DNA from: Bradyrhizobium ontarionense | GTDB lineage: Bacteria; Pseudomonadota; Alphaproteobacteria; Rhizobiales; Xanthobacteraceae | Length of the DNA: 64,000 nucleotides | Assembly: GCF_021088345.1 (NCBI RefSeq) | Contig: NZ_CP088156.1 | Span: 7,183,001 to 7,247,000 of the forward strand | Direction: 5' to 3' | In this document: positions 12,458 through 41,298 of the stretch, one piece after another | Position numbering within the stretch: position 1 is the stretch's first letter | Layout: the number at the start of each line of letters is the position of its first letter | Position numbers and translations under genes: made by a program | The notes under the pieces: model-generated | The model's input: the letters and a program-made list of their open reading frames with translations, nothing else | What the model was told of the DNA's origin: nothing | Databases searched by the model: none

Positions 12458-12484
12458 TCAGCATCCATCATTCAGGGCAGGGGC

Positions 12485-13840: not shown

Positions 13841-13917
13841 GGCGGGGTAGCTCAGCTGGTTAGAGCACGGGAATCATAATCCTGGGGTCGGGGGTTCGAG
13901 TCCCTCCCCCGCTACCA
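13841..13917 (+). tRNA. tRNA-Met (CAT), elongator type
   Basis: A 77-nt cloverleaf with acceptor GGCGGGG pairing CCCCGCT (G1-U72), D-arm GCTCAGCTGGTTAGAGC, anticodon stem CGGGA/TCCTG with loop ATCATAA (anticodon CAT at 13874-13876), T-arm with loop TTCGAGT, and encoded CCA (13915-13917). It lacks the C1-A72 mismatch and the GGG/CCC anticodon-stem pairs of initiators, so it is an elongator; tRNA-Ile2 with lysidine cannot be excluded. Its last 14 nt are the left end of the island's direct repeat. Confidence 0.95.
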
Positions 13918-13939
13918 TCTTTCCCCATACTCCCTTCAC
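13904..13939 (+). repeat. attL-like direct repeat (tRNA-Met 3' end)
   Basis: This 36-bp segment starts CTCCCCCGCTACCATC and is matched at 40748-40783 with two mismatches. Fourteen bases belong to the tRNA and 22 lie downstream. A further 21-bp identical block follows at 13959-13979 (copy at 40795-40815), part of a related recombinase tail. Confidence 0.8.
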
Positions 13940-14000
13940 TGGTTCGGATATGCCTCCCCGCCTCTCAGCGAGTTGAGACCTCCAGGGATTTCTACGCTAA
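13920..14000 (-). pseudogene. C-terminal remnant of a serine recombinase, left end of island
   Basis: On the minus strand the stretch encodes VSVEIPGGLNSLRGGEAYPN and then, after a stop and frameshift, a WGK-like sequence entering the tRNA as MVAGEGLEPPT. The right-hand remnant has the parallel series VSVDISERLNSLRGEETY...WGTMVAGE. Such tails reading into a tRNA are familiar from alphaproteobacterial recombinase genes. Only about 25 residues are recognisable; the rest to 14217 shows no gene I can support. Confidence 0.55.
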
Positions 14001-14217
14001 CGCCACTGGAACTCATCTCGTCCGCCGCATCGCTGGAGGCCCGACAGCGTTCTGCGGGAACGGCGCTGATGGCTCGGATGCGTGCGGCCGCGCTCGGTCT
14101 TGCGCCTCTGGGCTGCCGCGAAAAGGTCGGCCCTGACGATGGCAGGGTGTGCTACCTCCGCCGTCCGCTAATCGTTTTTCGGATCCGCCTGTGTCCGGAT
14201 CCTTCATCATCTGCACC

Positions 14218-15699
14218 TTATTCGCCAAGTTGCTCACAGCCGCCGCGATTCCGATCTATCTCGTCCGCGCCTTTCGGGGCCACGGCGCCGTGTATGTCTG
14301 CTGTGCCCGCCGCGATCGAAGCCGTGCTGCAATTCGGAGCGCTCTTTTTTCGGAGCGCAAGCTTCAGGGCAGCGCCCCCAATTCTCGAGTCATCGATCCA
14401 CAGTCGGCCGTCATAGAGGCTGGTCAGGTCGCGGGCAATTGCGAGACCCAGTCCAGTGCCCGGCTTTGCTTCGTCAAGTCTCGTGCCGACATCGAACACG
14501 CGCGTTCGATGCTCGATTGGAATGCCGGGCCCATCGTCCTCCACCGTGATCAAGACGGTGCTCTCGAGGTCTTCGATCGATATCACGACGCGGTCGCGCG
14601 CCCATTTTGCCGCGTTGTCGAGAAGGTTGCCAATCAGCTCGGTCAAATCGTTTGTATCGCAGGCGACGACGACGTCCGCCGCCCCTTCGACTTCGAACCG
14701 CCGGTCATGCCCTGGGCCAAATCGCGAATAGGTATTGATGACGCTCCTCAATACGTCTGCCACGACCGAACACGCGCCTGCATTCGCTATTGCGGACGCC
14801 TTCGCGCGTGCTGTCTGATAGTCGATCAGCAGCGCCATTCGCGCGCATTGCTCGAAGAGAATCCGAGCGTGGCTCTCCTGGCCGGATGCTCCCAGCCGCG
14901 TTGCTTCCTCGTCGAGGATGGCCAGGGGCGTCTTCAGCGCATGCGCAAAATTTCCAGCGAGCACGCGCGCGCGATCGACCATTGTGAGATTGGCCGTGAT
15001 CATTCCGTTCAACTCGGTTACCAGCGGCATGATCTCCTCCGGCAGGTCCTCCGGCAGGCGTGTGGTCTTGCCGCTGCGCACGTCCACGATGGCGCGACTC
15101 ATGCGTTGCAGCGGCCGCAGACCGTAGACGACCTGAGCATAGGCGGTGCCGACCATGGCAAGGGCCAAGATACCGAGCATCGCCATCAGCGTCAGATTGA
15201 GGTGCTGCATCTCGTCGCTGATCAGTCGCTCGTCGGCACCGATGCGGACCTCGACGGTTTGTCCGAGACGGGACGGCTCGCTGATGTTTCGGATCATGCG
15301 CATCGGCCCGGTCGGTCCCTCTACATTTGTAAGCACCGTGGAGGGGCTCGCGGAGCCGTCGCGAGTCTGGTCGGGCGTGAGTGAAAGAAAAAGATCATCG
15401 TCCAGCGAAGGCGAACGCGCGCTTTCGCCGTTCTGCAGAACGACCTGCCAATACATTCCGGATCGGGCAGGGGAGAATCGCGGATCGCTCAGATTGCGGG
15501 CGATGAATGGCCGCTGCGCTGCGTCGAGCTCAACGAGGTCGACGAGCTCGCGAGCGTGATCCAGCAGGTCATGATCGAAGTGGGCCTCGACGACACGGCG
15601 AATGATGATCGAAAGCCCGAGCCCGCTGGCGAACAAGACGATCGAAATCCAGATCGCGGCGATCGCGATCATGCGGGCCCGGAAGTTGCGGCTGAACAT
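14218..15699 (-). CDS. sensor histidine kinase (OmpR-group partner)
   Basis: A 493-residue inner-membrane kinase. Transmembrane helices lie at about 10-30 and 165-185, flanking a periplasmic sensor domain, followed by HAMP-like sequence. The H-box is NFAHALKTPLAIL, the N-box LIGNLLDNAAKWA, and G-boxes are VEDDGPGIP and GTGLGLAIA. I chose ATG 15699, 4 bp after the response-regulator stop, because the longer frame overlaps that gene. The HALKTP H-box and layout resemble PhoQ/QseC relatives. It presumably senses a periplasmic signal controlling the island. Confidence 0.85.
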   Translation of the reverse strand: MFSRNFRARMIAIAAIWISIVLFASGLGLSIIIRRVVEAHFDHDLLDHARELVDLVELDAAQRPFIARNLSDPRFSPARSGMYWQVVLQNGESARSPSLDDDLFLSLTPDQTRDGSASPSTVLTNVEGPTGPMRMIRNISEPSRLGQTVEVRIGADERLISDEMQHLNLTLMAMLGILALAMVGTAYAQVVYGLRPLQRMSRAIVDVRSGKTTRLPEDLPEEIMPLVTELNGMITANLTMVDRARVLAGNFAHALKTPLAILDEEATRLGASGQESHARILFEQCARMALLIDYQTARAKASAIANAGACSVVADVLRSVINTYSRFGPGHDRRFEVEGAADVVVACDTNDLTELIGNLLDNAAKWARDRVVISIEDLESTVLITVEDDGPGIPIEHRTRVFDVGTRLDEAKPGTGLGLAIARDLTSLYDGRLWIDDSRIGGAALKLALRKKSAPNCSTASIAAGTADIHGAVAPKGADEIDRNRGGCEQLGE

Positions 15700-15703
15700 T
15701 GTT

Positions 15704-16357
15704 CTATCCGAAGCGATATCCCATGCCTCTGATGGTGCGAATGCAATCGCGCCCCAGCTTTCTCCTGAGCCGGGCAATGTAGACTTCGACGGTATTGGAA
15801 TCGCGATGGTCGCTGCCCGGATAGATGTGGTCCAGCAGCTCGGTCTGCGACACGATATGATCGGCGCGGCGCATGAGGAGCTCGAGGACACGCAACTCGC
15901 TTGCGGTCAGGTCGACGATCTCGCCATCCTTCTTGACCAGGCCGGCCGCCGCGTTGAACTCGATCTGCCGGAGCCGGAGCACGGCGTCCGGTCTGTTGGC
16001 AACCCGCCGGAGCAGCGATCTGACCCGCGCGACCAACTCCTGCGCCTTGAAGGGCTTTTCGAGATAGTCGTCCGCGCCTGCGTTGAGTCCGTTGACGCGC
16101 TCGGCCCAGCCGCTGCGGGCGGACAGGATCAGCACCGGCAGCGTGTGTCCCGTATGACGCCAGCGTTGCAGCACATCGAGGCCCGAAAGGCACGGCAGGC
16201 CAAGATCGAGGACCGCGGCATCATAGGGCTGGCTGTTGCCCAGCATCCAACCCTGCTTGCCGTCGGTGGCTAGATCCGCCTCGAAGCCGGCGTCGGCCAG
16301 GCTTTCCCTGATGCGCGCCGCGTAAACGGGCTCGTCCTCTATGAGCAGAATGCGCAT
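15704..16357 (-). CDS. OmpR-family response regulator
   Basis: A 217-residue regulator with an N-terminal receiver (acidic pocket E7-D8, phosphoacceptor D51 in VLDLGLP, lysine in LEKPFKAQEL) and a C-terminal winged helix ending TIRGMGYRFG. It lies immediately before the kinase and 66 bp after ccmI on the same strand. Likely targets are the island's divergent promoters, but no binding site is proven. Confidence 0.9.
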   Translation of the reverse strand: MRILLIEDEPVYAARIRESLADAGFEADLATDGKQGWMLGNSQPYDAAVLDLGLPCLSGLDVLQRWRHTGHTLPVLILSARSGWAERVNGLNAGADDYLEKPFKAQELVARVRSLLRRVANRPDAVLRLRQIEFNAAAGLVKKDGEIVDLTASELRVLELLMRRADHIVSQTELLDHIYPGSDHRDSNTVEVYIARLRRKLGRDCIRTIRGMGYRFG

Positions 16358-16423
16358 GGCCGTTACTCCGGTTGCCGAACGGAATTGTTCCGACGATGCG
16401 GAGACGCCGATCGGCCTCGAACG

Positions 16424-17743
16424 CTATGGGTTGATCCCGAGCTGCTTGGCGGCGTCAGCTATGCGCGTGCGCTCAGGGGCATCCTCGGCGAAGACCGACA
16501 ATGCACGTTGCAGGGACTGTTTCGCTGCCTCGACCTCGCCCAGCACGACCCGCGAGCGGATCAGCTTGATCCAGCCCTCCGCATCGCGCGGTGATTGTTC
16601 GAGCCGGCTCGCAAGGCTATCCACCATGCCCCGGATCATGAGGTTGCGGTCCTGTGCGGACATACTTTCCGCTTTGCGGACGTCTTCGGCGCGGGGGCCG
16701 CGCGGCTCCGCGGGCTCGGTCGCGGCCGTCTTGCCGGAGCGCAGGAGTTCCTGCATGCGCTCGGCGGACAGGTTCGGCAGAGTAGACGATGGCGCGCCGT
16801 CATTCTCTCCGAGCTCGCGACGGAGCGCGCCAAGCCGCTGCTTGAGATCGGGCAGCCATGGCTCATTCGGATCGGCCTCCGAGACGATGGCCGTCCAGTC
16901 GGTCATCGCCCCCCGTTTGTCTCCCTCCTGTTCTTTCACGACGCCGATGAAGAAGCGGGCGCGCGCGTCTTTGGGATCCAGCCTGAGTGCCTCGTCAAAA
17001 TCCGCGCGGGCGTCAGGCGTGACGGTGCCGTCTGCGGCCCGCACCAGCGCTTCGCCCCTTGCGCTCCGATATTCCGCCGAGCCCGGCCGCAGCTCCATGG
17101 CGCGCGCATAGGCCTGCGTAGCCTCGGCAAATCGCTCGATGTTGAACAAGGACCAGCCCAGCAGCCGCCATCCGTCCGGATCCTTGGGATTCCGCTCCAG
17201 TCTGGTCTGCACACGTTGGATCATCTCTTCGACCGGCGGCAGCCCGCTGCCCTGCTGCGGTCGGTCCCGACTGTCCTGGCTGGCCATCTGCTCCAATGAC
17301 GCAATGGCCTGCGTGCCGGCGTCGGATCGCGCCTCGCCAACCGATCTGGCCGACGTGCTACTGGCTGTCTGGCCCGGCCCGGCTGCGGGGACATCCGGAT
17401 TTCCGATGACCGCGTACAGAACGACGGAGCCGAACACCACCGTCCCCGTCACGACGGTGAGCGCAAATTTTCGTTCGGAGCTCGTGAGGGAGGGCGCGGG
17501 CGGTTGTTCTGCGGCGGCTGCGGCGAGAATGCGCCGCTTGATCTCGCTGGCCGCGTTCTCGCCATCCGACTTGTCGATCAGGCCCCGCGCGGTGTCGTTC
17601 TCGATCTCGCGAAGCTGGTCGTGGTGGACGGCAAGTCCCTGAGCCGAAGCCAACTGTCTCCGCTCGAATCTGCGTATGAAGGGCGTCGATATAAGCACGG
17701 CGGCCACGGAAATCATCGCCGTCAGGATCAGCCACAGCATCAT
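16424..17743 (-). CDS. ccmI: cytochrome c maturation protein CcmI (CycH)
   Basis: A 439-residue protein of the haem-ligation complex that holds apocytochrome c. Two N-terminal membrane helices (about 2-20 and 92-112) flank a cytoplasmic loop, then a periplasmic TPR domain (GWRLLGWSLFNIERFAEATQ, repeated patterns after). The start ATG 17743 overlaps the ccmH stop. It is the most distal ccm gene of this arm. CcmI chaperones apocytochromes in alpha- and gammaproteobacteria, so a dedicated copy makes sense beside the giant cytochrome. Confidence 0.88.
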   Translation of the reverse strand: MMLWLILTAMISVAAVLISTPFIRRFERRQLASAQGLAVHHDQLREIENDTARGLIDKSDGENAASEIKRRILAAAAAEQPPAPSLTSSERKFALTVVTGTVVFGSVVLYAVIGNPDVPAAGPGQTASSTSARSVGEARSDAGTQAIASLEQMASQDSRDRPQQGSGLPPVEEMIQRVQTRLERNPKDPDGWRLLGWSLFNIERFAEATQAYARAMELRPGSAEYRSARGEALVRAADGTVTPDARADFDEALRLDPKDARARFFIGVVKEQEGDKRGAMTDWTAIVSEADPNEPWLPDLKQRLGALRRELGENDGAPSSTLPNLSAERMQELLRSGKTAATEPAEPRGPRAEDVRKAESMSAQDRNLMIRGMVDSLASRLEQSPRDAEGWIKLIRSRVVLGEVEAAKQSLQRALSVFAEDAPERTRIADAAKQLGINP

Positions 17744-18252
17744 GAAAGGCTCCGTCGATCGAGGATCGCCTCGATGGCTTTGAGTTCGTCGGCGCTGAGC
17801 GGAGCGACGTGCTCCGCATCGAGCGCTGTCGCATTGGCTGCCGCCCGGCGCACGTAGCGGCCAAAGGCGACGATGGCCGCCAGCAGCGCCAGCAGCGGGC
17901 CGATCCAGAGCGGGATCGTATTCCACTGCAGGGGAGGCTTGAGCAGAACGAAGTTGCCATAGCGTGCGACGAGGAAGTCCACTGCCTGCCGATCGCTGTC
18001 GCCAGCCTGCAGGCGATCTCGCAGCAGCACCCTCAGATCATGCGCCAATGGAGCGTTCGAGTCGTCGATGCTTTGATTCTGACAGACGACGCAGCGCAAC
18101 TCCTGGCTCAGCGCGCGCGCACGGGTCTCCAGCCCCTCATCCCGCAGCATTTCGTCCGGAAGCACCGCACGGGACGGCGACAGGGTCGCCGTCAGCATGA
18201 GCGAGCTGACGAGCAGCGCTTCGGCTACTCTCTTGATCCGCCGGCAGCTCAT
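17740..18252 (-). CDS. ccmH: cytochrome c maturation protein CcmH (CcmL/CycL)
   Basis: A 170-residue periplasmic-facing thiol protein with signal peptide, the conserved LRCVVCQNQ motif (C54, C57) and a C-terminal membrane helix (about 113-130). CcmH keeps the CXXCH cysteines reduced for haem ligation. It overlaps ccmG and ccmI by 4 bp on either side, so the three are translationally coupled. Confidence 0.93.
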   Translation of the reverse strand: MSCRRIKRVAEALLVSSLMLTATLSPSRAVLPDEMLRDEGLETRARALSQELRCVVCQNQSIDDSNAPLAHDLRVLLRDRLQAGDSDRQAVDFLVARYGNFVLLKPPLQWNTIPLWIGPLLALLAAIVAFGRYVRRAAANATALDAEHVAPLSADELKAIEAILDRRSLS

Positions 18253-18785
18253 GACTCGCTCCTGAGTGCCTTCAGGAGAGGTTCGAAATCGTCACGCCAC
18301 ACGTCTTCGGTCAGCGGGCCGGGATAGCGGAAGCGGATCCGGCCGGCCCGGTCGATCACGAAGGTCTCGGGAACGCCGGTCACGCCGAGATCGATGCCGA
18401 CCCGGCCGGACTCATCGGAGCCGACACGGGCATAGGGACTGCCATGCTTGGCAAGCCAGCGTTTACCGTCGCTCCGATCGTCCTTCCAGTTCAGTCCGTA
18501 GATCGGGATGGCGGAGCTCTCCGCAAGCTTGAGCAGCATCGGGTGCTCGACGCGGCATCCGGGACACCAGGATGCGAACACATTGAGCAGCAAGACGTCG
18601 CCCTGCAGATCGGTATTGGCAAGACCGGCACCCTTGCCGTCCAGCGATGCGAGCTGGAAGCGCGGCGTCGGCTTGTCGATCAGGGTCGACGGCATTCGCC
18701 GTGGATCGTTGGTCAGACTGAAAGCAAGTCCAGCGGCCAGCGCGGCGAAAGTGACGAGCGGTATGAGATAAGGGAGGCGCGGCAT
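18249..18785 (-). CDS. ccmG: thiol:disulfide interchange protein CcmG (DsbE/CycY)
   Basis: A 178-residue membrane-anchored thioredoxin-like protein with active site WCPGC (C74, C77) and the family features SLDGKGAGL and GVPETFVIDRAGRI (cis-proline after GV). It reduces apocytochrome or CcmH thiols in the periplasm. It lies 8 bp after ccmF and overlaps ccmH. Confidence 0.93.
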   Translation of the reverse strand: MPRLPYLIPLVTFAALAAGLAFSLTNDPRRMPSTLIDKPTPRFQLASLDGKGAGLANTDLQGDVLLLNVFASWCPGCRVEHPMLLKLAESSAIPIYGLNWKDDRSDGKRWLAKHGSPYARVGSDESGRVGIDLGVTGVPETFVIDRAGRIRFRYPGPLTEDVWRDDFEPLLKALRSES

Positions 18786-18793
18786 ATCTCGTC

Positions 18794-20782
18794 CTATTCA
18801 GCAGGAACGGCAATCGGTACAGCTGGCATCGCCCGCCGCGGTGCGCCGACGCGCAATCTCCGGTCGGCAAGCGAGATGAAGCCGCCGCAAGCCATCAGCA
18901 GCGCGCCGATCCAGACCAGCGGCACCAGAGGATGATAGTAGCAGCGCACCGCCCAGGCGCCCTTGTCGTCGGGATCGCCGAGCGTCACGTAGACGTTCCA
19001 GATCAGGTTGGTACGAATACCGGCGGCGGTGGTCAGCTGCTGTCTGACGGGATAGAAGCGGCGCTCGCTGGAAAGCTGCGTGAACGGCTTGCCGTTCCGC
19101 GTGATGTCGAAGGTGCCACGCTCGGCTTCGTAGTTGGGACCTGGAAATTTTCCGATCGAACGCAGCTTGATGTCATAGCCTGCGAGCTGCAGGCTCTGGC
19201 CCGGCCGCAGCATCTGCACCTTCTCGCTGGCCCACGCGGTCATCCCGGTAATGCCTGCGACGGTGACGCCCATTCCCGCATGGGCCAGCACGAGGCCGTA
19301 GACCGCGAGTGGCGTGGTGCGCGCGAGGTTGAGCGAGGTCGCCAAGGGAGTCGTCGTGCCGAGGCGCACGCGATGAACCAGTATCATCAGAGAGCCGACG
19401 ACGAGCCAGACGGCGATGCCGAAGAAGAACGCGACCAGGACATGGCGTCCGAACGTCGCGATGAGCATTGCGACGGTGACGAGTGCTGCAAGCCCCCCGA
19501 CCAGGCGGAGCCGTTGCAGCGCCGCAACGAGGAGATCTCGCTTCCATTTCAGAACCGGGCCGATCACCATGGCGAGCAGCACAGGGACCATGATGGGGAC
19601 GAACGTCATGTTGTAGTAGGGAGGGCCGACGGAGATCTTGTCGTTCCCCAGCATGTCGACGAGGAGCGGGTAGAACGTGCCGAGAAACACCGTGGCCACG
19701 GCTGCCGTGAGCAGCACATTGTTGAGGACGAGGCCGCTCTCGCGGCTGACCGCTGCAAACAGTGCACCGTGCTTCAGGCCTGGCGCCCGGATCGCATACA
19801 GTGTCAAGGCGCCGCCGGTTGCCACCAGGATCAGCGCCAGGATGAATGCGCCACGCGATGGATCCTGTGCGAAGGCATGAACGCTAGTGAGCACCCCGGA
19901 CCTCACCAGGAACGTTCCGATCAGGCTCAATGAGAAGGTCACGATCCCCAGGAGGATCGTCCAGCTTTGGAGGGCGTTCCGACGCTCGACCACCAGGGCG
20001 GAATGCAGGAGCGCAGTCCCCGCAAGCCATGGCATGAAGGAGGCGTTCTCGACGGGGTCCCAGAACCACCAGCCGCCCCAACCGAGCGTGTAGTAGGCCC
20101 ATGCGCTACCGAGCGTGATGCCAATCGTGAGAAAGCACCAGGCCGCGAGCACCCACGGTCGAACCCAGCGGGCCCAGCTGGCATCGACCTTTCCCTCGAT
20201 CAGCGCGGCAACCGAGAACGAGAACGCCATCGAGAAGCCGACGTAACCCAGGTACAGAAACGGCGGATGAAAGGCGAGGCCGGGATCCTGCAAAATCGGA
20301 TTCAGCCCGTTGCCTTCAAGGGGAGCATCGGCGAGCCGCGCGAACGGATTCGAGGTTGAGACAATGAACGCCAGAAAGCCGAGACCGATCATGCCGTGCA
20401 CGCCGAGAACGTTGCTCTGCAGCCGCTCGGGAAGGTTCGCGCCGAACAATGCAACTGCCGCGCCGAACACGGAGAGGATCAGGACCCACAACAGCATGGA
20501 TCCCTCGTGGTTCCCCCAGACTCCGGAGACCTTGTAGAGCAGCGGCTTCAGCGTGTGCGAATTCGCTGCGACGACCTGGACTGAAAAGTCCGAGTGGACG
20601 AACAGCGACGTCAGGCATGCGAACGCGATCGCGACAAAGAGAAACTGAGTGAGGGCGGCGTGACGAACGAAGCCGGCGATCATTGCGGATTGGCGACGCA
20701 GCGCTGCGAACGGAACGATCGACTGCACCAGCGACACGAGAAGCGCGAGAATTAGCGCAAAGGATCCGGCCTCCGCCGTCAT
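18794..20782 (-). CDS. ccmF: cytochrome c haem lyase subunit CcmF
   Basis: CcmF (662 residues, usual length) is a multi-spanning membrane protein that transfers haem from holo-CcmE to apocytochrome. The WWD region is clear: YYTLGWGGWWFWDPVENASFM. I chose ATG 20782 with GGAG 7 nt upstream; the open frame extends 22 codons further without a better start. The island lacks ccmABCDE, so this copy must work with a housekeeping CcmE elsewhere. The 20783-21086 gap likely holds its promoter; I see no gene there. Confidence 0.93.
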   Translation of the reverse strand: MTAEAGSFALILALLVSLVQSIVPFAALRRQSAMIAGFVRHAALTQFLFVAIAFACLTSLFVHSDFSVQVVAANSHTLKPLLYKVSGVWGNHEGSMLLWVLILSVFGAAVALFGANLPERLQSNVLGVHGMIGLGFLAFIVSTSNPFARLADAPLEGNGLNPILQDPGLAFHPPFLYLGYVGFSMAFSFSVAALIEGKVDASWARWVRPWVLAAWCFLTIGITLGSAWAYYTLGWGGWWFWDPVENASFMPWLAGTALLHSALVVERRNALQSWTILLGIVTFSLSLIGTFLVRSGVLTSVHAFAQDPSRGAFILALILVATGGALTLYAIRAPGLKHGALFAAVSRESGLVLNNVLLTAAVATVFLGTFYPLLVDMLGNDKISVGPPYYNMTFVPIMVPVLLAMVIGPVLKWKRDLLVAALQRLRLVGGLAALVTVAMLIATFGRHVLVAFFFGIAVWLVVGSLMILVHRVRLGTTTPLATSLNLARTTPLAVYGLVLAHAGMGVTVAGITGMTAWASEKVQMLRPGQSLQLAGYDIKLRSIGKFPGPNYEAERGTFDITRNGKPFTQLSSERRFYPVRQQLTTAAGIRTNLIWNVYVTLGDPDDKGAWAVRCYYHPLVPLVWIGALLMACGGFISLADRRLRVGAPRRAMPAVPIAVPAE

Positions 20783-21086
20783 GTTGGCTCTCCGACTGCA
20801 GTATTTATTCCTGCACATAACTATCAAGTGTCTGTGATGCGTCGACAATCAATGCGCCGAATGAGGCATCATTCGTACAGAATGGTGATGATCCATCGAC
20901 GCGCATCGTAGTGTAATTGCAGCTCACTAGCGGTAGCTGTCGTGAGAGCGTGATGAACACGTCTTCGCGGTTCAACGCGTTATGTCGGACGAGAAACAGC
21001 CGCTCGAATCGCCTGCGGCGCGCCTGCGAACGGCGAACGCGACGTCGGTCGCGCGATGGACGGGAAGGTCGAAACGAGATCGTCTG

Positions 21087-23898: not shown

Positions 23899-24258
23899 GT
23901 CGCCTCTCTCTTCTCTCTTACGAACTGGCGGTAGGCGAGAGCAGTTTCCGGCTACGCAAGCCGCCTGGAAGGATGAGTTGTGGTGCCAGATGCAAACTCC
24001 TCTCAACAGATGCCGACATAGAAATTCCAGAATGATCTGTAGACCTGCGGACAACGATTAGTTCATTCGTTGAACAGATACCGTCGGCGGAAATATGGCT
24101 CGTACTGATCTCGCACTCATGACATCGCTGTCGGAGCACGTAAGACTTCGTTGCAAGTGGTTATCAGGAAGCAATCTCTCGACTGAGATCCGGAAATCCG
24201 CAGGCAAGCCGGACATTCGCCCATCCGGCTTTGGGGTTTCACAGGAAGCGTCGATGAC
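23899..24258. promoter_or_regulatory. divergent promoter region of the island
   Basis: This 360-bp gene-free stretch separates the two divergent arms, so it should carry both promoters. A palindrome GTTCA-N5-TGAAC lies at 24061-24075, and a second inverted pair GCCGGA/TCCGGC at 24208-24213 and 24224-24229. Either could be an operator for the island's response regulator. No clear sigma-70 hexamers stand out. Confidence 0.5.
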
Positions 24259-25137: not shown

Positions 25138-25149
25138 CGGAGTTTCGCG

Positions 25150-33000: not shown

Positions 33001-36000
33001 GCCACGCCAAGGCAGCGAGTGGCGGCTTCACCAGCTGGGGCGGCGCGGCATTCAAGCACGCCGCCACCGACACCAACTGCGCGACCTGCCACAACGGCAA
33101 GACGGCACAGGGCATGACCACGCCGCCGCACATCCCGACCGGCACGCTGCAATGCTCGAACTGCCACAGCAACACCGCGGCGAGCTTCACCACCTACACG
33201 ATGAGTCACGCCGTGGTGTCGACGGCCCGCTGCGACAGCTGCCACAATGGCAGCTACACCGGCCAGGGCACCAAGGGTGCGCTGGGGACGGCTTCGTACC
33301 CGAACCACGTCGCCACCGGCGGCGCCGACTGCGTCAGCTGTCATGCCAAGTCGGCTTCGGGCGGCTTCACCAGCTGGGGCGGTGCGGCATTCAAGCACGC
33401 CGCGACCGACACCAACTGCGCGACCTGCCACAACGGCAAGACGGCACAGGGCATGACCACGCCGCCGCATATCCCGACCGGCACGTTGCAGTGCTCGAAC
33501 TGCCACAGCAACACCGCGGCGAGCTTCACCTCCTACACGATGAACCACACTGCTGTGTCGACGGCGCGCTGCGACAGCTGTCATAACGGCAGCTACACCG
33601 GCCAGGGCACCAAGGGCGCGATGGGCACGGCGTCCTATCCGGGCCATGTTGCCACCAACGGCAGCGATTGCGTCAGCTGTCACGCCAAGGCCGCGAGCGG
33701 CGGCTTCACCAGCTGGGGCGGCGCGGCATTCAAGCATGCCGCCACCGACACCAACTGCGCCACCTGCCACAACGGCAAGACGGCGCAGGGCATGACCACG
33801 CCGCCGCACATTCCGGTGACCGGCATCCAGTGCTCGAACTGCCACAGCAACACCGCGGCGAGCTTTGCCACCTACACGATGAGCCACGCCGCGGTGGCGA
33901 CGGCCCGCTGCGACAGCTGCCACAATGGCAGCTACACCGGCCAGGGCACCAAGGGCGCGATGGGCACGGCGTCCTATCCGGGCCATGTTGCCACCAACGG
34001 CAGCGATTGCGTCAGCTGTCACGCCAAGGCAGCCTCGGGTGGCTTCACCAGCTGGGGCGGGGCGGCGTTTTCGCACTCGGCCGCGGACACCAATTGCTCG
34101 ACCTGCCACAACGGTTCGAGCGCCAAAGGCTTGACGACTCCGCCGCATATTCCGGTGACCGGCGTCCAGTGCTCGAACTGCCATAGCAACACGGCAGCGA
34201 GCTTCGCCACCTACACCATGAGCCATGCCGCGGTTCATGCCACGCGGTGTGACAGCTGCCATAACGGTTCGTATCGCGGTCAGGGCCGTAAAGGTGCGCA
34301 GGGGCCGGATCATAGCGCCAAGACGCAGGATTGCGGCTGCTGCCACGTGCGCGCCGCCGCCAACTTCTCGACTTGGGACGACGATCCGCAAAAGCCGGCA
34401 GCGGGTTGCACGACTACAGCGAGGTCGGTCGTTCCCGCACAGGCTCCGACCGTCAAAGCGGTTACGCCGGCCTCGACTGCCAATCGGACGATGACAGCGG
34501 CGACGGCCCCCAGCGCCGCCGCATCGCAGTCGCCGGGCGCAGGCACCGCTATGTCTCAGGCGCCAGCCGGTGCTGCTGCCAAGCCAGCTGCACCAAGCAA
34601 TTCGGCGCTCCTGTTCAGCAGCAAGCCGCTCGCGAATATGTCGGGAACGTCGCCCGCTGCCGGAACCAATCCCGAAGCAGGGGCTGCCTCGGCAGTCGCG
34701 CCGGGCTCCTCCAAATCCGACAGCTCAGCGAAAGCCGGAGCCTCCGGGGTGTCGGTGACGCAGCCGCAGAGCTCCGGATCCCAAATGACGGCCGTCCCGT
34801 CTGCACAGCTTGCACCGAACGATCCGCGCAGCAAGCTCTTGCCTCAGGCCGGCGCGGCCAGCACCGACTCCTCGGAAGCGCAGAACGCAGGTCGGCTCCC
34901 GTCGCTGCTGCCGACCCTCAATCCGAGGGCAGGCCTTGCCGGATCGAGCACGATGGAGGCCGGCTCCAGGTTCAATCACATGACGGCGCAAGGACCTTGC
35001 ACTTCCTGCCACAACGGCACGAGCGCGCCTGGCAAGCCGCAGAAGCACGTCGCCACCAGCGCACCGTGCGAGACCTGCCACAAGAGTACGACGACGTTCA
35101 GCGGCGCCCGCTTCAGCCATACCGCGACGACGGCGGCCTGCGCGAGCTGCCACAACGGCATGGCCGCAACCGGCAAGCCGCAGAAGCACGTCGCGACCAA
35201 CGCGCCGTGCGAGACCTGCCATAAGAGCACGACCACGTTCAGTGGCGCACGCTTCAGCCATACCGGGACGGCGGCGGCTTGCGCGAGCTGCCACAACGGC
35301 ATGGTTGCGAGCGGCAAGCCGCAGAAGCACGTCGCGACCAACGCGCCGTGCGAAACCTGCCACAAGAGCACGACCACGTTCAGTGGCGCACGCTTCAGCC
35401 ACACCGGGACGATGGCGGCCTGCGCGAGCTGCCACAACGGCATGGCCGCGACCGGCAAGCCGCAGAAGCACGTCGCGACCAATGCGCCGTGCGAGACCTG
35501 CCACAAGAGCACGACGACGTTCAGCGGCGCCCGCTTCAGCCACGCCGGCACGATGGCCGCCTGTGCAACCTGCCACAACGGATCATCAGCCGGCGGCAAG
35601 CCGCCGCGTCACGTGCTCACCAGCGCGCCGTGCGAAAGCTGTCACAAGAACACGGTGTCGTTCTCGGGCGCACGGATGGATCACAGCAGCCTGACTGCGC
35701 CGTGCGCCAGCTGCCACAACGGCTCCAACGCCACCGGAAAGTCGCCGAAGCACTTCGTGACCAATGTCCCCTGCGAGAGCTGCCATCGGACGGTCAGCTG
35801 GACGTCGGTCAACTACCGGCATATGTCGGCAAGCTATCCGAACCATAGCGCGGCGATTGCCTGCACCGCCTGCCATAGCGGCAACTCGCAAGCCGTCGTG
35901 TTCAAGTTCGCGGCCTACAAGCCCGACTGCGCCGCCTGTCACGCGGGTGATTTCCGGCCGCAGCAACACGCCAAGCTCGTGAAGCCGGCGCCGATGGACT

Positions 36001-36119
36001 ACACCGTCGCCGAGCTCAAGGACTGCACCGGCGCGTGCCACATCTATGCTGACAAGTCGCAGACCACCATCATCACCCGTCGCCAGCGGCAGCACCGGGT
36101 CAATGGAGGCGGCTGGTGA
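27003..36119 (+). CDS. giant multihaem cytochrome c, 3,038 residues, 101 CXXCH plus one CX3CH
   Basis: A signal peptide (hydrophobic core about 19-34, AHAAA-Q) leads into a 7-haem N-terminal region (to ~209). Twenty tandem 113-residue units (about 210-2469) follow, each with four CXXCH and four other histidines (KHA, PPH, MNH/MSH, PNH) placed 6-9 residues before a motif. An Ala/Ser/Pro linker without haem sites (about 2470-2654) separates a C-terminal region with 14 CXXCH and one CX3CH (C3008-C3012). TTG 27003 has GGAG nearby; ATG 27054 is an alternative that still leaves a signal peptide. The stop overlaps the barrel gene (GTGA). Proposed role: long-range electron wire in the periplasm, through or outside the outer membrane. 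Count was made by eye. Confidence 0.9.
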   Translation: MSGCYSKLGLLARASHRMVWWLLAGMLLALAMAGHAAAQSSFDHVSTGFPLTGSHIGVECSSCHVSGRFKGTQTQCASCHNGAQTAGMSVNHPKTTRRCESCHQTSSWKDIRVIDHSQAKAPCATCHNGVMALGKPKSHITTMAPCDACHRTTASFRVGMKMDHAGIVAGCANCHNGTTARGKSSAHIQTNLPCESCHTSTASFGGAAFKHAATDTNCATCHNGKTALGMTTPPHIPVTGIQCSNCHSNTAAAFDVYTMSHAAVSASRCDSCHNGSYTDQGNAGAVGTKSYPNHVATNGQDCITCHATAASGGFKSWGGAGFKHAATDTNCATCHNGKTALGMTTPPHIPVTGVQCSNCHSNTAAAFDVYTMSHAAVSASRCDSCHNGSYTDQGNAGAVGTKSYPNHVATNGQDCITCHATAASGGFKSWGGAGFKHAATDTNCATCHNGKTALGMTTPPHIPVTGIQCSNCHSNTAAAFDVYTMSHAAVSASRCDSCHNGSYTGQGTKGAMGAASYPNHVATGGADCISCHAKAASGGFTSWGGAAFKHAATDINCATCHNGKTAQGMTTPPHIPTGTLQCSNCHTNTAASFATYTMSHAAVATARCDSCHNGSYTGQGTKGALGTASYPNHVATGGADCVSCHAKAASGGFTSWGGAAFKHAATDTNCATCHNGKTAMGMTTPPHVPTGTLQCSNCHTNTAASFTTYTMNHAAVSAARCDSCHNGSYAGQGTKGALGTASYPNHVATGGADCVSCHAKAASGGFTSWGGAAFKHAATDTNCATCHNGKTAMGMTTPPHVPTGTLQCSNCHTNTAASFTTYTMNHAAVSAARCDSCHNGSYAGQGTKGALGTASYPNHVATGGADCVSCHAKAASGGFTSWGGAAFKHAATDTNCATCHNGKTAQGMTTPPHIPTGTLQCSNCHSNTAASFTTYTMNHAAVSTARCDSCHNGSYIGQGTKGAMGTASYPNHVATGGADCVSCHAKAASGGFTSWGGAAFKHAATDTNCATCHNGKTAQGMTTPPHIPTGTLQCSNCHTNTAASFATYTMNHAAVATARCDSCHNGSFTGQGTKGAMGTASYPNHVATGGVDCVSCHAKAASGGFTSWGGAAFKHAATDTNCATCHNGKTAQGMTTPPHIPTGTLQCSNCHSNTAASFTTYTMNHTAVSTARCDSCHNGSFTGQGTKGALGTASYPNHVATNGSDCVSCHAKAASGGFTSWGGAAFKHAATDTNCATCHNGKTAQGMTTPPHIPTGTLQCSNCHSNTAASFTTYTMNHTAVATARCDSCHNGSYTGQGTKGAMGTASYPNHVATNGQDCISCHSTAASGGYTSWGGAAFKHAATDTNCATCHNGKTAQGMTTPPHIPTGTLQCSNCHSNTAASFTTYTMSHAAVATARCDSCHNGSYTGQGTKGAMGTASYPNHVATGGADCVSCHAKAASGGFTSWGGAAFKHAATDTNCATCHNGKTALGMTTPPHIPTGTLQCSNCHSNTAASFATYTMNHAAVSTARCDSCHNGSYTGQGTKGALGTASYPNHVATGGSDCVSCHGTAASGGYASWGGAAFKHAATDTNCATCHNGKTAQGMTTPPHIPTGTLQCSNCHSNTAASFTTYTMNHAAVSTARCDSCHNGSYIGQGTKGAMGTASYPNHVATGGADCVSCHAKAASGGFTSWGGAAFKHAATDTNCATCHNGKIAQGMTTPPHIPTGTLQCSNCHTNTAASFTTYTMSHAAVATARCDSCHNGSYTGQGTKGAMGTASYPNHVATGGADCVSCHAKAASGGYASWGGAAFKHAATDTNCATCHNGKTAQGMTTPPHIPTGTLQCSNCHSNTAASFATYTMNHSAVSTARCDSCHNGSYAGQGTKGAMGPASYPNHVATNGQDCISCHSTAASGGYASWGGAAFKHAATDTNCATCHNGKTALGMTTPPHIPTGTLQCSNCHSNTAASFATYTMSHAAVSTARCDSCHNGSYVGQGTKGAMGTASYPNHVATGGADCISCHAKAASGGFTSWGGAAFKHAATDTNCATCHNGKTAQGMTTPPHIPTGTLQCSNCHSNTAASFTTYTMSHAVVSTARCDSCHNGSYTGQGTKGALGTASYPNHVATGGADCVSCHAKSASGGFTSWGGAAFKHAATDTNCATCHNGKTAQGMTTPPHIPTGTLQCSNCHSNTAASFTSYTMNHTAVSTARCDSCHNGSYTGQGTKGAMGTASYPGHVATNGSDCVSCHAKAASGGFTSWGGAAFKHAATDTNCATCHNGKTAQGMTTPPHIPVTGIQCSNCHSNTAASFATYTMSHAAVATARCDSCHNGSYTGQGTKGAMGTASYPGHVATNGSDCVSCHAKAASGGFTSWGGAAFSHSAADTNCSTCHNGSSAKGLTTPPHIPVTGVQCSNCHSNTAASFATYTMSHAAVHATRCDSCHNGSYRGQGRKGAQGPDHSAKTQDCGCCHVRAAANFSTWDDDPQKPAAGCTTTARSVVPAQAPTVKAVTPASTANRTMTAATAPSAAASQSPGAGTAMSQAPAGAAAKPAAPSNSALLFSSKPLANMSGTSPAAGTNPEAGAASAVAPGSSKSDSSAKAGASGVSVTQPQSSGSQMTAVPSAQLAPNDPRSKLLPQAGAASTDSSEAQNAGRLPSLLPTLNPRAGLAGSSTMEAGSRFNHMTAQGPCTSCHNGTSAPGKPQKHVATSAPCETCHKSTTTFSGARFSHTATTAACASCHNGMAATGKPQKHVATNAPCETCHKSTTTFSGARFSHTGTAAACASCHNGMVASGKPQKHVATNAPCETCHKSTTTFSGARFSHTGTMAACASCHNGMAATGKPQKHVATNAPCETCHKSTTTFSGARFSHAGTMAACATCHNGSSAGGKPPRHVLTSAPCESCHKNTVSFSGARMDHSSLTAPCASCHNGSNATGKSPKHFVTNVPCESCHRTVSWTSVNYRHMSASYPNHSAAIACTACHSGNSQAVVFKFAAYKPDCAACHAGDFRPQQHAKLVKPAPMDYTVAELKDCTGACHIYADKSQTTIITRRQRQHRVNGGGW
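27630..34409 (+). repeat. 20 tandem 339-bp coding repeats
   Basis: The period is exactly 339 bp (113 codons) from the first KHAATDT unit at about 27630 to the last, most diverged unit starting about 34071. Units 5 and 6 (starting about 28986 and 29325) are nearly identical over more than 200 bp, showing recent duplication. Units 1-3 share a DQGNAGAVG/AAAFDVY variant; the rest share GQGTKGA. The array is prone to copy-number change and to assembly collapse. Confidence 0.95.
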
Positions 36120-39100
36120 CGAGTGGCCGCTTCAGACAAGCAGCGGCAGCGAGGTCGACCCGATGGGCGATGACTCTGCTGTTCGGCTTGCTCGCAATCC
36201 TGCTCGATGGAGCCTTTGGCATCGCATCGGCGCAGCCGGTCATCGATCAGTTCGTCGCCACTGCAAATGCCACGACGGTCGGCAACTGCAGTCTCCTGCA
36301 AGTCAATTTTCATGTTCGCGTACGCTATACCGGGCATTTCCCGCTCGATCAGGGCAGCCAGCTCAGCGTCTCGCTGCAATTGGTCGATCGGGACGCCATC
36401 ATGGCGCGGCGGCTGGTCCGGCGCGAGGGTGTGCGGGTCGAAAATGCCCAGGGCTCCGGCATCCAGGACGTCTATCTGACACTCGATCAGAACAGAGGAC
36501 CGATCCTCGTCGTCCAGTTTGGCGGCGAATTCACCTACCAGATCGTGCAATCCGGCAGCTTCGAGCAGGTGACGATCGTCATTGCCCGCAAGGGGCCGGT
36601 GTCGGCGTGCAAGGTGAAGGCCCTGGTGCCGAGCGTGGCGGATCCGGGTGCGCCGAAGCCGGCCCCGATTCCGGGGGCGGCGGTGTCGATCCGCAACGAC
36701 AATCGGACGATGCAGCAGGCGTCCGCGGCGGACATCCGTTTTGCCGAGGCCTCGATGGACGAGGCGCGCGCATCAATCAAGAAAGGCAATTTCAGCGCCG
36801 CGATCGATCTTCTGAAGAAGGTGCTCAAGCTCCCTGAGACCGGTTCGAGCGCTGAGGCGCAGGAACTGCTCGGCGTCGCCCGCCAGAAGGCCGGCCAGAC
36901 CGCTGCAGCTCAGGCCGAATATGAGGACTATTTGCGCCGCTATCCGAACGGCGAGGGCGGCGAGCGGGTCAGGCAGCGGCTCGCCGCGCTTCTCACCGCG
37001 ACCAGCAGCGCACCGGCGCGGCCGCGTGACACGTCTCCTGGGGCCTCCGACGGCGGAGACATGGGGGGAGCGATGTCGACGAAGGCGGGAGGGCCGAACG
37101 GCGATACCCGCTGGTCGATGTCGGGCAGCCTCTCGACGACCTTCATCACCAATGACAGCACCAGCGCCGTCAAAGACAGGGCGATGGCGCCGAACCCGAA
37201 TGCCGATCCCGATGCCCACCGGGTTCATCAGAACACGCTGCTGACCAATTTCGACTACCTCGGCACGGCTGACAACGATCGCATCAGGACCAAGTTCAAG
37301 CTGGCTTTCACCCATGAGCGCCAGTTCGATACGGGGAACGACAAGTATGGCGTATCGACCGCGCAAGTCGATTACACGCTGAAGGAGGCCGACGTGACGT
37401 TGCGCGTCGGACGGCAATCGCGCAACACCGGAGGCGTGATGGGCCGTTTCGACGGCGCGGTGCTGAGCTGGCAGAAGAGCCCTGGTCTGCGCTTGAACGT
37501 GCTCGCGGGCTCGCCGAACTGGAGCCGCTTCGACGCACCGTTCAAGGACGGCAAGACGCTCTATGGCGCAAGCATCGACTTCGGCAAGATTCTGGGCGGG
37601 CTCGAAACCACAGTCTACCTCATCACCCAATACGATCGCAACATCGTCGATCGCCAGGCCATCGGCGCCGAATTCCGCTACTTCGATGCCAATAAGTCGC
37701 TGCTCGGCCTGATCGACTACGATACACATTTTCGCGCGCTCAATGCGGCGGTGTTCTCCGGAACCTACACGTTCGACGACAAGTCGGTCATCAACGCCTC
37801 GTTCGACTATCGAAAGGTTCCGTTTCTCTCGACCTGGAATGCGTTGCAGGGGCAGCCGTTCCTCACTCTTTACGACATGATGAAGTTCAACACCGCAGCC
37901 GAGATCAGGCAGTTCGCGATCGACCGGACGCCGACGTTCCAGTCGGCCATGGTGAGCTATTCGCGGCCTTTGAACGAGACCTGGCAGGTGGCCGCCGATG
38001 CCACGGTGACCAATCTGACCGGTACGCTGCCGTCCGGAGGCGTCGATGGCACGCCGGCGAGCGGTCTCGAATATTACCTGTCGGCTCAGCTGACCGGGAA
38101 CGGCATCGTCAAACCGGGCGATCTGTTCATGGGCGCGCTGCGCTACGCGAGCCTGGCGGATTCGAAGTTCTACGTGCTGGATCTTGCCTCGCGCTATCCG
38201 ATCACGCCCGATCTCGCCGTCAGCCCGCGGCTGCGGATGGGCTACAGGTCCGGGACGCAGACCGACCTAAAGGAGTACACGATCCTCCCGTCGCTGCTGG
38301 TCAGCTATTTGTGGTCGAAAGAGATCAGCATGGATGCCGAGGTCGGGTACCGCTACGTCGACAGCACGCAGGCCAACATCAAGACGACGACCAAGGATCT
38401 TTTCGCGACGGTCACGTTGCGGCGCGACTTCAACGCCGACGGCGTTACCAAGTGCAACGCCTCGATCGTCAGCTGCGCCTGGGCCAGGCCTGCGGCGTTG
38501 GAAGGCGGGCAGGGGGCAGGCGCGGGCGGCATGCCGCTGAAATCGCGCGGATCGCCCCTGTCGTCCTACATGCTGGAGACCGGTGTGCGCTACTGGTTCA
38601 GCTCGGGGCAGAATCGCTACCGCTATTTCGCCGACCAGGCCGCGACGCTGCAGGTCTCGCGGCTCGCCTATGGCGGAATGACCGGGCACACTGGCGAGAT
38701 GTTCTTCAGGGTCGATGCGCTCGACGGACCCTTCACCAACATGTTTCTGAAGGGCTACATCGGAACGGGCAAGATCACTTCGGGCACTCTCGTCGACGAG
38801 GACTTCGCCCCGTTCGTCAATCCATCGTCCAAGACCGTCAGCAGCCTCGGCGGTGGGTTGCACTACGCAAATCTCGATGTCGGCTTCAATCTCCTGGAAA
38901 CCGAGCGCTTCCGGCTCGGCGCCTTCGTCGGCTATCAATATTGGGCGGAGACGGTCGACGCCCGAGGCTGCACCCAGGTTGGCGGCAACCCGGCGATCTG
39001 CAATCCGGCGCTGGGGCCCGGCGTGAAGGTGGTGACCGAGCAGGATCGCTGGCACAGCGGACGGGCCGGTGTCTCACTCGACACGCGGCTGTCGGACCGG

Positions 39101-39385
39101 CTGAGCTGGCAGGCGGAGGCCGCTTATGTCTGGACTTCGCAGAATGCGATCGACACGCACTATTTCACGTTCGGGCGCGACCCCGCCGCAGGACAAGGAT
39201 CCGGATTCCAGGCCGAGACCGTTCTGAACTACCAGCTGACGGACAACTTCCGCATCGGCATCGGCGGACGCTGGTGGCATCTCAGCACCAATGCGGTCGA
39301 TTCGTTCAATCAGGTCCTGAGATATACGACGGAGCGTTATGGCGTCTTCCTCCAGGGCTCCTACAAGTTCAACCAGCCGCGATAG
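36116..39385 (+). CDS. outer-membrane beta-barrel protein with periplasmic TPR domain
   Basis: A 1,089-residue protein. The signal peptide (about 17-40, ending IASAQ) precedes a beta-rich domain (to ~200), a TPR-like domain (about 220-300: [33 protein letters not shown]) and an Asp/Gly/Pro linker. From about 345 to the end the sequence alternates polar and aromatic residues as in a large barrel and closes with [10 protein letters not shown] plus four residues. About 740 barrel residues is similar to MtrB/PioB porins that sheath decahaem cytochromes, though I cannot show homology. GTG 36116 overlaps the cytochrome stop, so the two are made together. Confidence 0.75.
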
Positions 39386-39405
39386 CCAGCCGGAGTCGTT
39401 CGATC

Positions 39406-40683
39406 ATGAACTATCAAGCACGGCCGTTCGGCCTTCTTCCCGAATACGACGCGATGTTCCGCGGGGCATTGGATCGGCTGCGCCAGGAACGGCGCTATCG
39501 TGTCTTTGCGGATCTTGAACGTCTGGCGGGCCGCTGCCCGCACGCGATCTGGCATTCGCCGGAGGGCGAGCGTGAGGTCGTGATCTGGTGCTCGAACGAT
39601 TATCTGGGCATGAGCCAGCACCCGAAAGTCATCGGCGCCATGATCGATGCCGCATCGCGCATGGGCACCGGTGCCGGCGGCACCCGCAACATCGCGGGGA
39701 CGAACCACCCGCTCATCGCGCTCGAGCGAGAGCTGGCCGATCTCCACGGCAAGGAGGCCGCACTGGTGTTTACTTCGGGTTATGTTTCCAACGAAGCGGG
39801 GATATCGACCATCGCCAAGCTGCTGCCTGGATGTTTGCTGCTATCCGACACGTTGAACCACAACTCCATGATCGAGGGCGTCCGCAAGGCCGGTGTGGAG
39901 AAGCAGATCTGGCAGCACAACGACACGGAGCATCTCGAGCGGCTGCTGCGAGCAGCTGATCCCGAAAGGCCCAAGCTGATCGTGTGCGAGAGCCTCTACT
40001 CGATGGACGGCGATATCGCGCCGTTGCATCGAATTTGCGATCTGGCCGAGCGCTACGGCGCGCTCACCTATGTCGACGAGGTGCATGCGGTCGGGATGTA
40101 TGGCCCGCGCGGCGGCGGCATAGCTGAGCGCGACGGGGTCATGGGTAGGATCGACATTGTCGAGGGCACGCTGGCAAAGGCCTATGGCTGTCTCGGCGGC
40201 TATCTTGCGGCCGGGGCGAACCTGATCGATGCGGTGCGCTCCTACGCCCCTGGCTTCATTTTCACGACGGCATTGCCGCCGCCGGTCTGCGCAGCCGCGA
40301 CCGCTGCGATCCGGCATCTGAAAGTCTCGACAGCAGAGCGCGTCCGGCATCAGGATCGAGCCGCGCGCTTGAAGTCGGTCCTGATCGCAGCAGACCTGCC
40401 GGTGATGCCGAGCGAGAGCCATATCGTGCCGGTGCACGTCGGCGATCCCGAGAAGTGCAGGGCGGCATCGGACCTGCTGATGTCGGAGCACGGCATCTAC
40501 ATCCAGCCGATCAATTACCCCACTGTTCGGCGAGGAATGGAACGCCTGCGTCTTACACCAACGCCCTATCACGATGATGCGCTCATGGACCGGCTGGTCC
40601 ATGCGATGGTCGAGGTGTGGGACAGACTCCATCTCCGTTACCGCCGGGAGAGCGGCCGGCCGCGCGGGGACGAGACGCCATAG
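39406..40683 (+). CDS. hemA: 5-aminolevulinate synthase
   Basis: A 425-residue PLP enzyme that condenses glycine and succinyl-CoA, the first step of haem synthesis in alphaproteobacteria. Features include [43 protein letters not shown] and the PLP lysine K258 in [11 protein letters not shown] 39406 lies 20 bp after the barrel gene; the frame is open further upstream but inside that gene. It is the last gene before the right repeat. An island copy next to haem-rich proteins suggests a supply role in addition to a housekeeping hemA expected elsewhere. Confidence 0.93.
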
Positions 40684-40744
40684 CGCCGTCTGCGAACGGT
40701 TGGATCAGAAATCGTATGTTCGGCTGGCGTGGGGAAAGGCGGTA

Positions 40745-41298
40745 GCGCTCCCCCGCTACCATCGTTCCCCATAGTCCCTTCACATATGTCTCCTCGCCTC
40801 TCAGCGAGTTGAGACGTTCAGAGATGTCTACGCTGACCCGGCGGGCCGCGTCTCGTCCCGCCCACAGGATGACTTTCTCAACGAGGTCTGGGATCGCTTC
40901 CGTGGCCCCCACGTCTCCCTCGCTCACACCTCGTGAGCTTTCGAGCCGGACCGATTGTTCCTCGTAGCGCCTCAGAATGGACCGGTGGGAGTGCGATGGC
41001 TCGCGGCGCTGGGGGCGCGCTCCGCAATTCGGCAATGTCTCGCTTCCGGTCGGCATCCAGAGCCGTGGACTTGGGTCCGAGAATTGCGGGATCGCCATGA
41101 TCCTTGGCGATCGCGTCAACCGGTCGATCAATCTCTCGGTTCGGTTGGCCGAGCTGCTGGTCCAGTCGTCCTCTCTTGGCGACGGTTGAGGCTGCAAGGC
41201 GTTTCCTCTCGTCCAGCTAGGTCTTCACATATTCAGTAGAGACCTTCGGTGAGCGCATCTTCCGCTCGCAGACCGCCGAGCACTGTCCGCTTGAGTCG
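40745..41298 (-). pseudogene. decayed serine recombinase (C-terminal part)
   Basis: Translating the minus strand with two or three frame changes and one stop recovers a serine-recombinase C-terminal region: TVLGGLRAE, then LDERKRLAASTVAKRGRLDQ, QLGQPNREIDRPVDAIAKD, HGDPAILGPKSTALDADRK, and after a frameshift RRYEEQSVRLESS...IPDLVEKVILWA...VSVDISERLNSL...GLWGTMVAGE. This coiled-coil and tail pattern is typical of large alphaproteobacterial recombinases whose genes end in a tRNA. No catalytic N-terminal domain is found upstream; 41299-41459 holds nothing else I can support. Confidence 0.75.
40748..40783 (+). repeat. attR-like direct repeat (copy of tRNA-Met 3' end)
   Basis: Matches 13904-13939 over 36 bp with two mismatches; the first 14 bp equal the tRNA 3' end including CCA. 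No other tRNA arm is present, so it is not a tRNA gene. It lies 64 bp after hemA and abuts the recombinase remnant. Confidence 0.8.

Follow-up and report, generated by a model that had tools for sequence, protein, structure and literature searches.

A predicted PCC3-type electron conduit packaged with assembly genes in a 26.8-kb block at tRNA-Met of Bradyrhizobium ontarionense

Gene content of the block

We analysed a 64,000-nucleotide stretch of the Bradyrhizobium ontarionense genome (contig NZ_CP088156.1, positions 7,183,001 to 7,247,000; hereafter the window), in which a 26.8-kb block lies between a tRNA-Met gene and a far repeat of that gene's 3' end. Four genes of the block, judged on their sequences, fit the published description of a PCC3-type porin-cytochrome conduit, in which the barrel nature of the porin is predicted. 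They stand beside genes for haem ligation, the first enzyme of haem synthesis, an iron-sulfur flavoprotein, an ankyrin repeat protein and a two-component regulator. Gene contents were assigned with Pfam and NCBIfam on the main open reading frames (ORFs). The genome of the window is labelled G000, and other labels of this form denote the relatives compared with it. The features are given below in window coordinates.

13841-13917, plus strand: tRNA-Met (CAT), the insertion target (ARAGORN)
13877-14228, minus strand: left remnant of a large serine integrase gene, degraded (tblastn; residues 504-552 and about 243-315 of a 552-aa relative)
13904-13939, plus strand: left repeat, attL-like, 14 nt of tRNA 3' end plus 22 nt (34/36 identical to 40748-40783)
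14218-15702, minus strand: sensor histidine kinase (HK; PF02518; ORF 14218-15891; final ~33 codons not cassette sequence)
15704-16357, minus strand: OmpR-type response regulator (RR; PF00072 and PF00486)
16424-17926 (ORF), minus strand: CcmI/CycH TPR subunit (TIGR03142 above cut-off)
17740-18252, minus strand: CcmH (PF03918)
18249-18785, minus strand: CcmG/DsbE, thioredoxin-like (TIGR00385 above cut-off)
18794-20848, minus strand: CcmF haem lyase (TIGR00353 above cut-off)
21087-22610, minus strand: Sel1 and ankyrin repeat protein (Ank) with an apparent signal peptide (PF12796, PF08238; N-terminus read by eye)
22597-23898, minus strand: 2[4Fe-4S] and thioredoxin-reductase-like flavoprotein (FNR; Fer4, Pyr_redox_3; ORF to 24054)
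24259-25137, plus strand: PCC3-type inner-membrane protein (IMP), 292 aa, predicted di-haem b (motif alignment)
25150-26508, plus strand: periplasmic-type multihaem cytochrome, 18 CXXCH (CXXCH count)
27054-36119, plus strand: giant multihaem cytochrome, 101 CXXCH and one CX3CH, 3038-aa ORF (CXXCH count, tandem units)
36170-39385, plus strand: TPR and predicted outer-membrane barrel (PCC3 porin; 1089-aa ORF from 36116; 351 relatives among the candidates scored)
39406-40683, plus strand: 5-aminolevulinate synthase (ALAS; TIGR01821, 664.8 bits against a cut-off of 338.55)
40748-40783, plus strand: right repeat, attR-like (the cassette homology of G129 and G260 stops just before it)
40748-41402, minus strand: right remnant of a serine integrase gene, degraded (tblastn; residues about 320-543)

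A first-pass annotation, made from the letters alone, had placed ALAS, CcmF-G-H-I, an electron-input enzyme, the membrane protein, the two cytochromes and the barrel in a 26.8-kb region bounded by a 36-bp imperfect repeat of the tRNA-Met 3' end. The repeat is as described, and the family matches confirm the listed genes, with 18 and 101 CXXCH counted in the two cytochromes. The co-location of an electron-transfer conduit with haem-ligation genes and ALAS, behaving as a unit, also stands.

PCC3 is a putative porin-cytochrome c complex, described as a predicted conduit in the relevant sections of He et al. 2017 (PMC5566968). As given there, its IMP has about 300 residues, five transmembrane helices, an SGXXG motif and two WX3HX13H motifs, its periplasmic multihaem cytochrome has a median of 21 haems, and its extracellular multihaem cytochrome is large and rich in repeats. 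The same sections name 'Agromonas oligotrophica S58' and Bradyrhizobium sp. STM 3843 among the examples and credit S58 with 85 haem sites, the largest number then known. The window shares with PCC3 the clustering of an IMP, a periplasmic multihaem cytochrome, a giant multihaem cytochrome and a predicted porin, the IMP motifs and a very low residue-to-haem ratio. The 292-aa IMP has no Pfam or NCBIfam match; its two WX3H-X13-H motifs and SGXXG are invariant in 23/23 aligned sequences (W84, H88, H102, S125, G126, G129, W267, H271 and H285). Relatives of the IMP are labelled 'pyridine nucleotide-disulfide oxidoreductase' in public records, a label probably carried over from the adjoining flavoprotein. 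The logic of a membrane electron carrier, a periplasmic multihaem cytochrome and a porin is also that of the MtrAB, MtoAB and PioAB conduits. The 18-haem protein differs from the decahaem family of MtrA, MtoA and PioA, since it is not a member of the DmsE-type family TIGR03508 (26.1 bits against a cut-off of 192.2). It carries 18 CXXCH in 11/11 cassettes and would be periplasmic.

The giant cytochrome gene probably starts at the ATG at 27054, which gives a signal-peptide-like start, and not at the TTG at 27003. It is made up of a 339-bp unit (four haems in 113 aa) present in 19-20 copies, followed by a C-terminal set of 141-bp units. Because units 1 and 2 (27726-28364) are 98% identical and other pairings 76-92%, we read this pair as a recent unit duplication. 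The porin is recognised by PF13505 (E <= 0.01) in 10/32 aligned members, the window protein not being one of them. Its C-terminal ~280 residues (about 805-1086) match a separate outer-membrane barrel family that is found alone in many genomes and on plasmids, and the porins of G202, G597, G471 and G046 align only to about residue 774. From these alignments the Bradyrhizobium protein appears to be a fusion of a PCC3 porin with a second barrel. The order of the four PCC3 components is kept in the window and in 6/10 other cassettes seen whole; the other four end at contig ends inside the giant gene.

The minus-strand genes include CcmF, CcmG, CcmH and CcmI of the Ccm system I. The start of CcmI is likely to lie near 17740. 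The CcmF of the block is the second copy in the genome, at 55% to the other, and a second CcmF was found in 8/8 cassette genomes against 0/4 cassette-free ones among the 12 searched. Haem-lyase sets dedicated to one particular cytochrome, with a CcmF-type lyase, are known from NrfEFG and SirEFG, which serve unusual haem motifs. The situation here is similar in the tie between lyase and cytochrome and different in the sites, nearly all of which are plain CXXCH, with one conserved CX3CH. No CcmABCDE family was found among the main ORFs scanned in the block; therefore, the block leans on its host for these functions. The suggestion of a self-contained system with its own haem supply is accordingly not upheld: besides CcmABCDE, the rest of the haem pathway is absent, the ALAS is one of four copies in the genome, and a carrier of the same cassette, G061, keeps only an ALAS remnant. 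The flavoprotein, whose PDB relatives are 7a76 and 7a7b, is apparently membrane-anchored (anchor read by eye) and is a candidate electron input or output enzyme. In three further families (G521, G417 and G471), too, FNR and PCC3 are accompanied by a Sel1 and ankyrin protein with an apparent signal peptide.

Insertion anatomy and integrase remnants

The DNA at the tRNA-Met flank (12400-13970) has some match in 265/265 Bradyrhizobium genomes. Only the first 14 nt of the repeat are tRNA sequence; the remainder is similar to the 3' portion of a gene for a serine integrase. A gapped local alignment lengthens the repeat to 13904-14026 and 40748-40862 with a score of 119, compared with a maximum of 36 in a random control of 463 region pairs from the same window. 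In the 10 cassettes aligned, the kinase gene's 3' end marks the left edge of the cassette, which lies at about 14319 in G000. The proposed boundaries hold for the repeat-flanked block, and the block proper begins slightly further in. On the right, an edge common to G000, G129 and G260 runs to ~64 bp beyond the ALAS stop and abuts the repeat in G000. No terminal inverted repeats were seen by eye at the left ends of 10 cassettes or the right ends of the 4 aligned. Ten cassette genes have a GC content at third codon positions of 0.73-0.87, against 0.84-0.92 for five core flank genes; the genes of the right flank range from 0.71 to 0.85.

Insertion at the tRNA gene, as first proposed, is supported. 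The tRNA-Met site is without the cassette in 11/11 relatives inspected (4-12 kb downstream), and a copy of the tRNA 3' end stands at the far end of the insert in G000, as expected of a tRNA-targeted island. The DNA after tRNA-Met varies between relatives, and several have an integrase there. In G061 an intact gene for a 552-aa large serine recombinase (L093:1912-3570), with Resolvase, Recombinase and Zn ribbon domains, lies directly after tRNA-Met on the opposite strand, and its final codons are inside the tRNA gene. Relatives of this integrase occupy the same tRNA-Met in G191 (82-83%), G143 (80%, split over two frames) and G260 (53%). Both remnants in the window carry stops and frame breaks. 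Most plausibly, the repeat represents the att region of such an integrase, which would have been doubled by two tandem elements or by one element beside an older relic.

These features, namely the tRNA target, the direct repeats and the behaviour of the block as a unit, are also those expected of an integrative element that still carries itself from site to site. We regard continued mobility as very improbable, and rejected it on the state of the enzyme and its surroundings. A search of G000 for an intact integrase of the G061 class (E <= 1e-10) returned 3 fragments only, all at this locus; no conjugation or replication family was found among the main ORFs scanned in the block; and 0/72,556 plasmid records contain 80% of either the membrane protein or the porin. 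Since only integrase fragments were found in G000 with this query, the insertion looks like a fossil, with neither element now movable by this enzyme. The block resembles serine-integrase tRNA islands in its tRNA 3'-end repeat and in an integrase gene that reads into the tRNA. It differs from them in that the integrase is decayed, the cargo is one metabolic unit, and further copies of the unit lie elsewhere, with repeats not found in 6/6 tested.

To the right of the island, a Sox/sulfur block (41469-58357) has a sharp left edge that recurs in G079, G129 and G260, and the DNA upstream of it differs in each. It looks like another relocating block. The Sox genes were rejected as part of the system on account of the sharp edge at 41469 and the presence of the Sox block elsewhere in relatives.

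Relocation and ancestry of the cassette

Strong matches to the IMP were found in 11/265 Bradyrhizobium genomes, G000 included. The conserved order is HK-RR-CcmI-H-G-F-Ank-FNR on the minus strand and IMP-18-haem-giant-porin-ALAS on the plus strand. It is kept in 9/10 other cassette genomes as far as the contigs reach (5 whole, 4 ending inside the giant gene), with CcmG not detected in the G023 cassette; in the tenth, G202, the genes are present in a rearranged order. Right-hand parts of broken cassettes lie on other contigs in G260 (ALAS), in G061 and in G143 (porin), and that of G190 is probably on contig L037, from the same kind of metagenome-assembled genome (MAG) record.

The cassettes lie in different places. 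Their flanks are unlike one another, apart from some short stretches and the left-hand flanks of G000 and G246, which both lie at tRNA-Met; four genomes entered this comparison without a right flank. Among the nine other same-order carriers only G246 has the tRNA-Met flank, and there its likeness to the cassette-free G008 ends at the tRNA 3' end. The other eight share neither G000 flank in the stretches compared. In G129 the cassette is a clean 25.5-kb insertion between a 425-aa ORF and the 3' end of a tRNA-Arg gene. The closed site is seen in 3/9 genomes (G231, G272 and G251), where the flanks are about 51, 51 and 139 bp apart, and in the other 6/9 the flanks are far apart or unpaired. The tRNA-Arg spot is occupied by other DNA in G000 and G079, at whose far side 25-31 bp of the tRNA end recur; in G000 this DNA is about 46 kb long (C1, about 1904998-1951108) and ends in a 31-bp copy of the tRNA 3' end. 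No closed site was found for the G251 cassette, whose left flank has long but scattered matches in 6/9 genomes and whose right flank has long matches in none. Nor was one shown for G191, whose right flank has long matches in 14/17 genomes; its left flank has partial matches, elsewhere.

The giant gene differs in haem number between cassettes. One script counted 43 (G023), 53 (G191), 61 (G202), 73 (G251), 85 (G129), 101 (G000) and 123 (G246) CXXCH, and at least 95 in G190, numbers that depend on the assembly of near-identical units. The count for G129 equals the 85 published for S58. A single CX3CH lies near the C-terminus in 7/7 genes in which the C-terminus is present. The range of 43 to 123 haems is consistent with gain and loss of units of ~113 residues and four haems.

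A further reading is that of a relocating 'wire factory', in which conduit, regulator, haem-lyase module and first haem-synthesis enzyme would have stayed mostly together since before the genus, moving within Bradyrhizobium chromosomes with edges at gene ends, while the wire itself varied from 43 to 123 haems through its four-haem units. The chances that this account is right appear to us evenly balanced. Outside the family, G521 has ALAS-Ank-FNR-CcmI-H-G-F opposite an IMP, an 18-haem cytochrome, a 65-haem cytochrome and a porin. Among 397 genomes sampled from the order, the porin alignment is matched by 19 (E <= 1e-60); the matches extend over the whole porin or its N-terminal part in 8 and over the C-terminal barrel part alone in 11.

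Several observations weigh against the main explanation set out below, a PCC3 conduit with dedicated assembly genes that an integrase brought into tRNA-Met. At four-fold sites, where seven cassette genes were compared with five core genes, the ratio of cassette to core divergence is 0.79-1.28 within the close clade (10 pairs), which fits long residence and not recent delivery. A convincing flanking repeat was found in 0/6 of the further cassettes tested (the best candidate, an inverted 22-mer, had an E of 0.007); therefore, the tRNA-integrase route explains G000 and not all sites. The DNA right of 41469 is at differing places in relatives, so that the right flank gives no closed empty tRNA-Met site. 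The G061 ALAS has decayed to a remnant beside the porin (L033:6256-6457, about residues 3-81), the second CcmF counted for G143 is split over contigs, G521 has no HK/RR match in the stretch examined, and G417 and G471 have PCC3, FNR and Ank without Ccm or ALAS in the piece examined. As to function, Fe(II) oxidation is a published guess for PCC3, and in Sideroxydans lithotrophicus ES-1 both PCC3 clusters are reported as downregulated on Fe(II) in the passages of PMC8788666 that deal with them. In CL21, according to the corresponding part of PMC12442390, iron oxidation was accompanied by an increase in one PCC3 IMP.

Recent transfer between lineages is unsupported, given the similar divergence of cassette and core within the close clade. 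Outside the clade the cassette is 1.6-2.0 times as divergent as the core, in 18 pairs involving G143, G191 or G246. Trees were built from a four-gene cassette set and from five core genes, and the groups tested on them were chosen after the trees had been seen. Deep branching is the same in both, with G143 outside the clade and G191 and G246 further out. Within the clade the cassette tree joins G251 and G061 (100/100) and rejects G260 with G061 (p about 1e-77), which is the pair that the core favours most (83/88). Neither G251 with G061 (p 0.165) nor G000 with G129 (p 0.069) is rejected by the core, which weakly rejects G000, G129 and G260 together (p 0.036); the cassette does not reject G129, G260, G251 and G061 together (p 0.159).

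A different explanation is that the cassette is ancestral and vertically inherited, that it was lost many times and moved by ordinary rearrangement, and that the tRNA-Met neighbourhood in G000 is a rearrangement-prone hotspot in which it lies by coincidence. We consider this quite possible, though its chances fall somewhat short of even. The agreement of the deep branches, the compatibility of the cassette data with the core-like group of four, the divergence ratio inside the clade, the equally displaced Sox block with its sharp edge at 41469, and the G202 genes kept in rearranged order are all as it would have them. It does not readily account for the clean insertion in G129 with closed sites in three relatives, or for the repeat and integrase remnants that flank the G000 block. 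The conflict of the trees within the clade also speaks against it, yet the core tolerates the cassette's pairing of G251 with G061 and the groups were named post hoc. On these comparisons the cassette fits an old resident that moves, is often lost and undergoes some exchange among near relatives. The earlier idea that the block travels as a unit thus holds for relocation, which the differing flanks support, and fails for recent transfer between lineages, in view of the divergence and the trees.

Proposed mechanism and implications

Our reading of the G000 locus, which we consider probable, is of a PCC3-type porin-cytochrome conduit packaged with dedicated assembly genes and inserted at the tRNA-Met 3' end between two decayed integrase gene copies. 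An integrase of the G061 class would have inserted the block at tRNA-Met next to an earlier, similar element, and decay of both integrase genes would then have left the block stuck. Electrons could pass, in one direction or the other, along a chain formed by the Fe-S flavoprotein on the cytoplasmic side and/or the quinone pool, the di-haem-b IMP, the periplasmic 18-haem cytochrome, the porin and a surface cytochrome of about 100 haems. The two-component pair may switch the block on, and the extra CcmFGHI and ALAS may raise haem ligation and haem synthesis, with the host providing CcmABCDE and the remaining steps of haem synthesis. The simplest reading of the second CcmF and fourth ALAS is that they provide capacity for a complex of about 120 haems, if the cytochromes pair 1:1.

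The same extra ALAS and CcmFGHI could instead serve the load of a giant cytochrome that acts as a periplasmic or surface charge store (a capacitor) or as a store of haem or iron. The large haem numbers and their variation between strains would suit a store, and a capacitor role is discussed in a part of PMC10734462. We think this role unlikely, as the porin and the di-haem-b-type membrane protein are part of the published PCC3 and both are kept in the cassette.

The conduit itself is known as a predicted type. The first-pass annotation knew of no described island with this combination; this is incorrect for the conduit, which the relevant sections of PMC5566968 already describe as PCC3 with S58 as an example, and within the open-licence literature searched it stands for the wider package. 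Here, unlike in the published PCC3, the conduit is kept with CcmFGHI, ALAS, the flavoprotein, Ank/Sel1 and HK/RR, its location changes, and the giant cytochrome reaches 101 (G000) and 123 (G246) CXXCH against the published 85. In the text of PMC5566968 the words heme lyase, ankyrin and aminolevulinate occur 0 times, and searches of the open-licence literature turned up neither the package nor its relocation nor the haem-length series.

Whether very large PCC3 multihaem cytochromes are wires, and what effect their length has, are questions on which this series bears: in related strains, otherwise similar gene sets contain giant genes with 43, 53, 61, 73, 85, 101 and 123 haems, which nature thus offers as a graded set of lengths on which to measure conduction or charge storage. 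From the association with a dedicated haem lyase set and ALAS we predict that such proteins are limited by the supply of haem and by its ligation, a limit that matters for moving electron conduits between bacteria. The finding also suggests electroactivity in plant-associated and soil bacteria that are not generally considered metal oxidisers.

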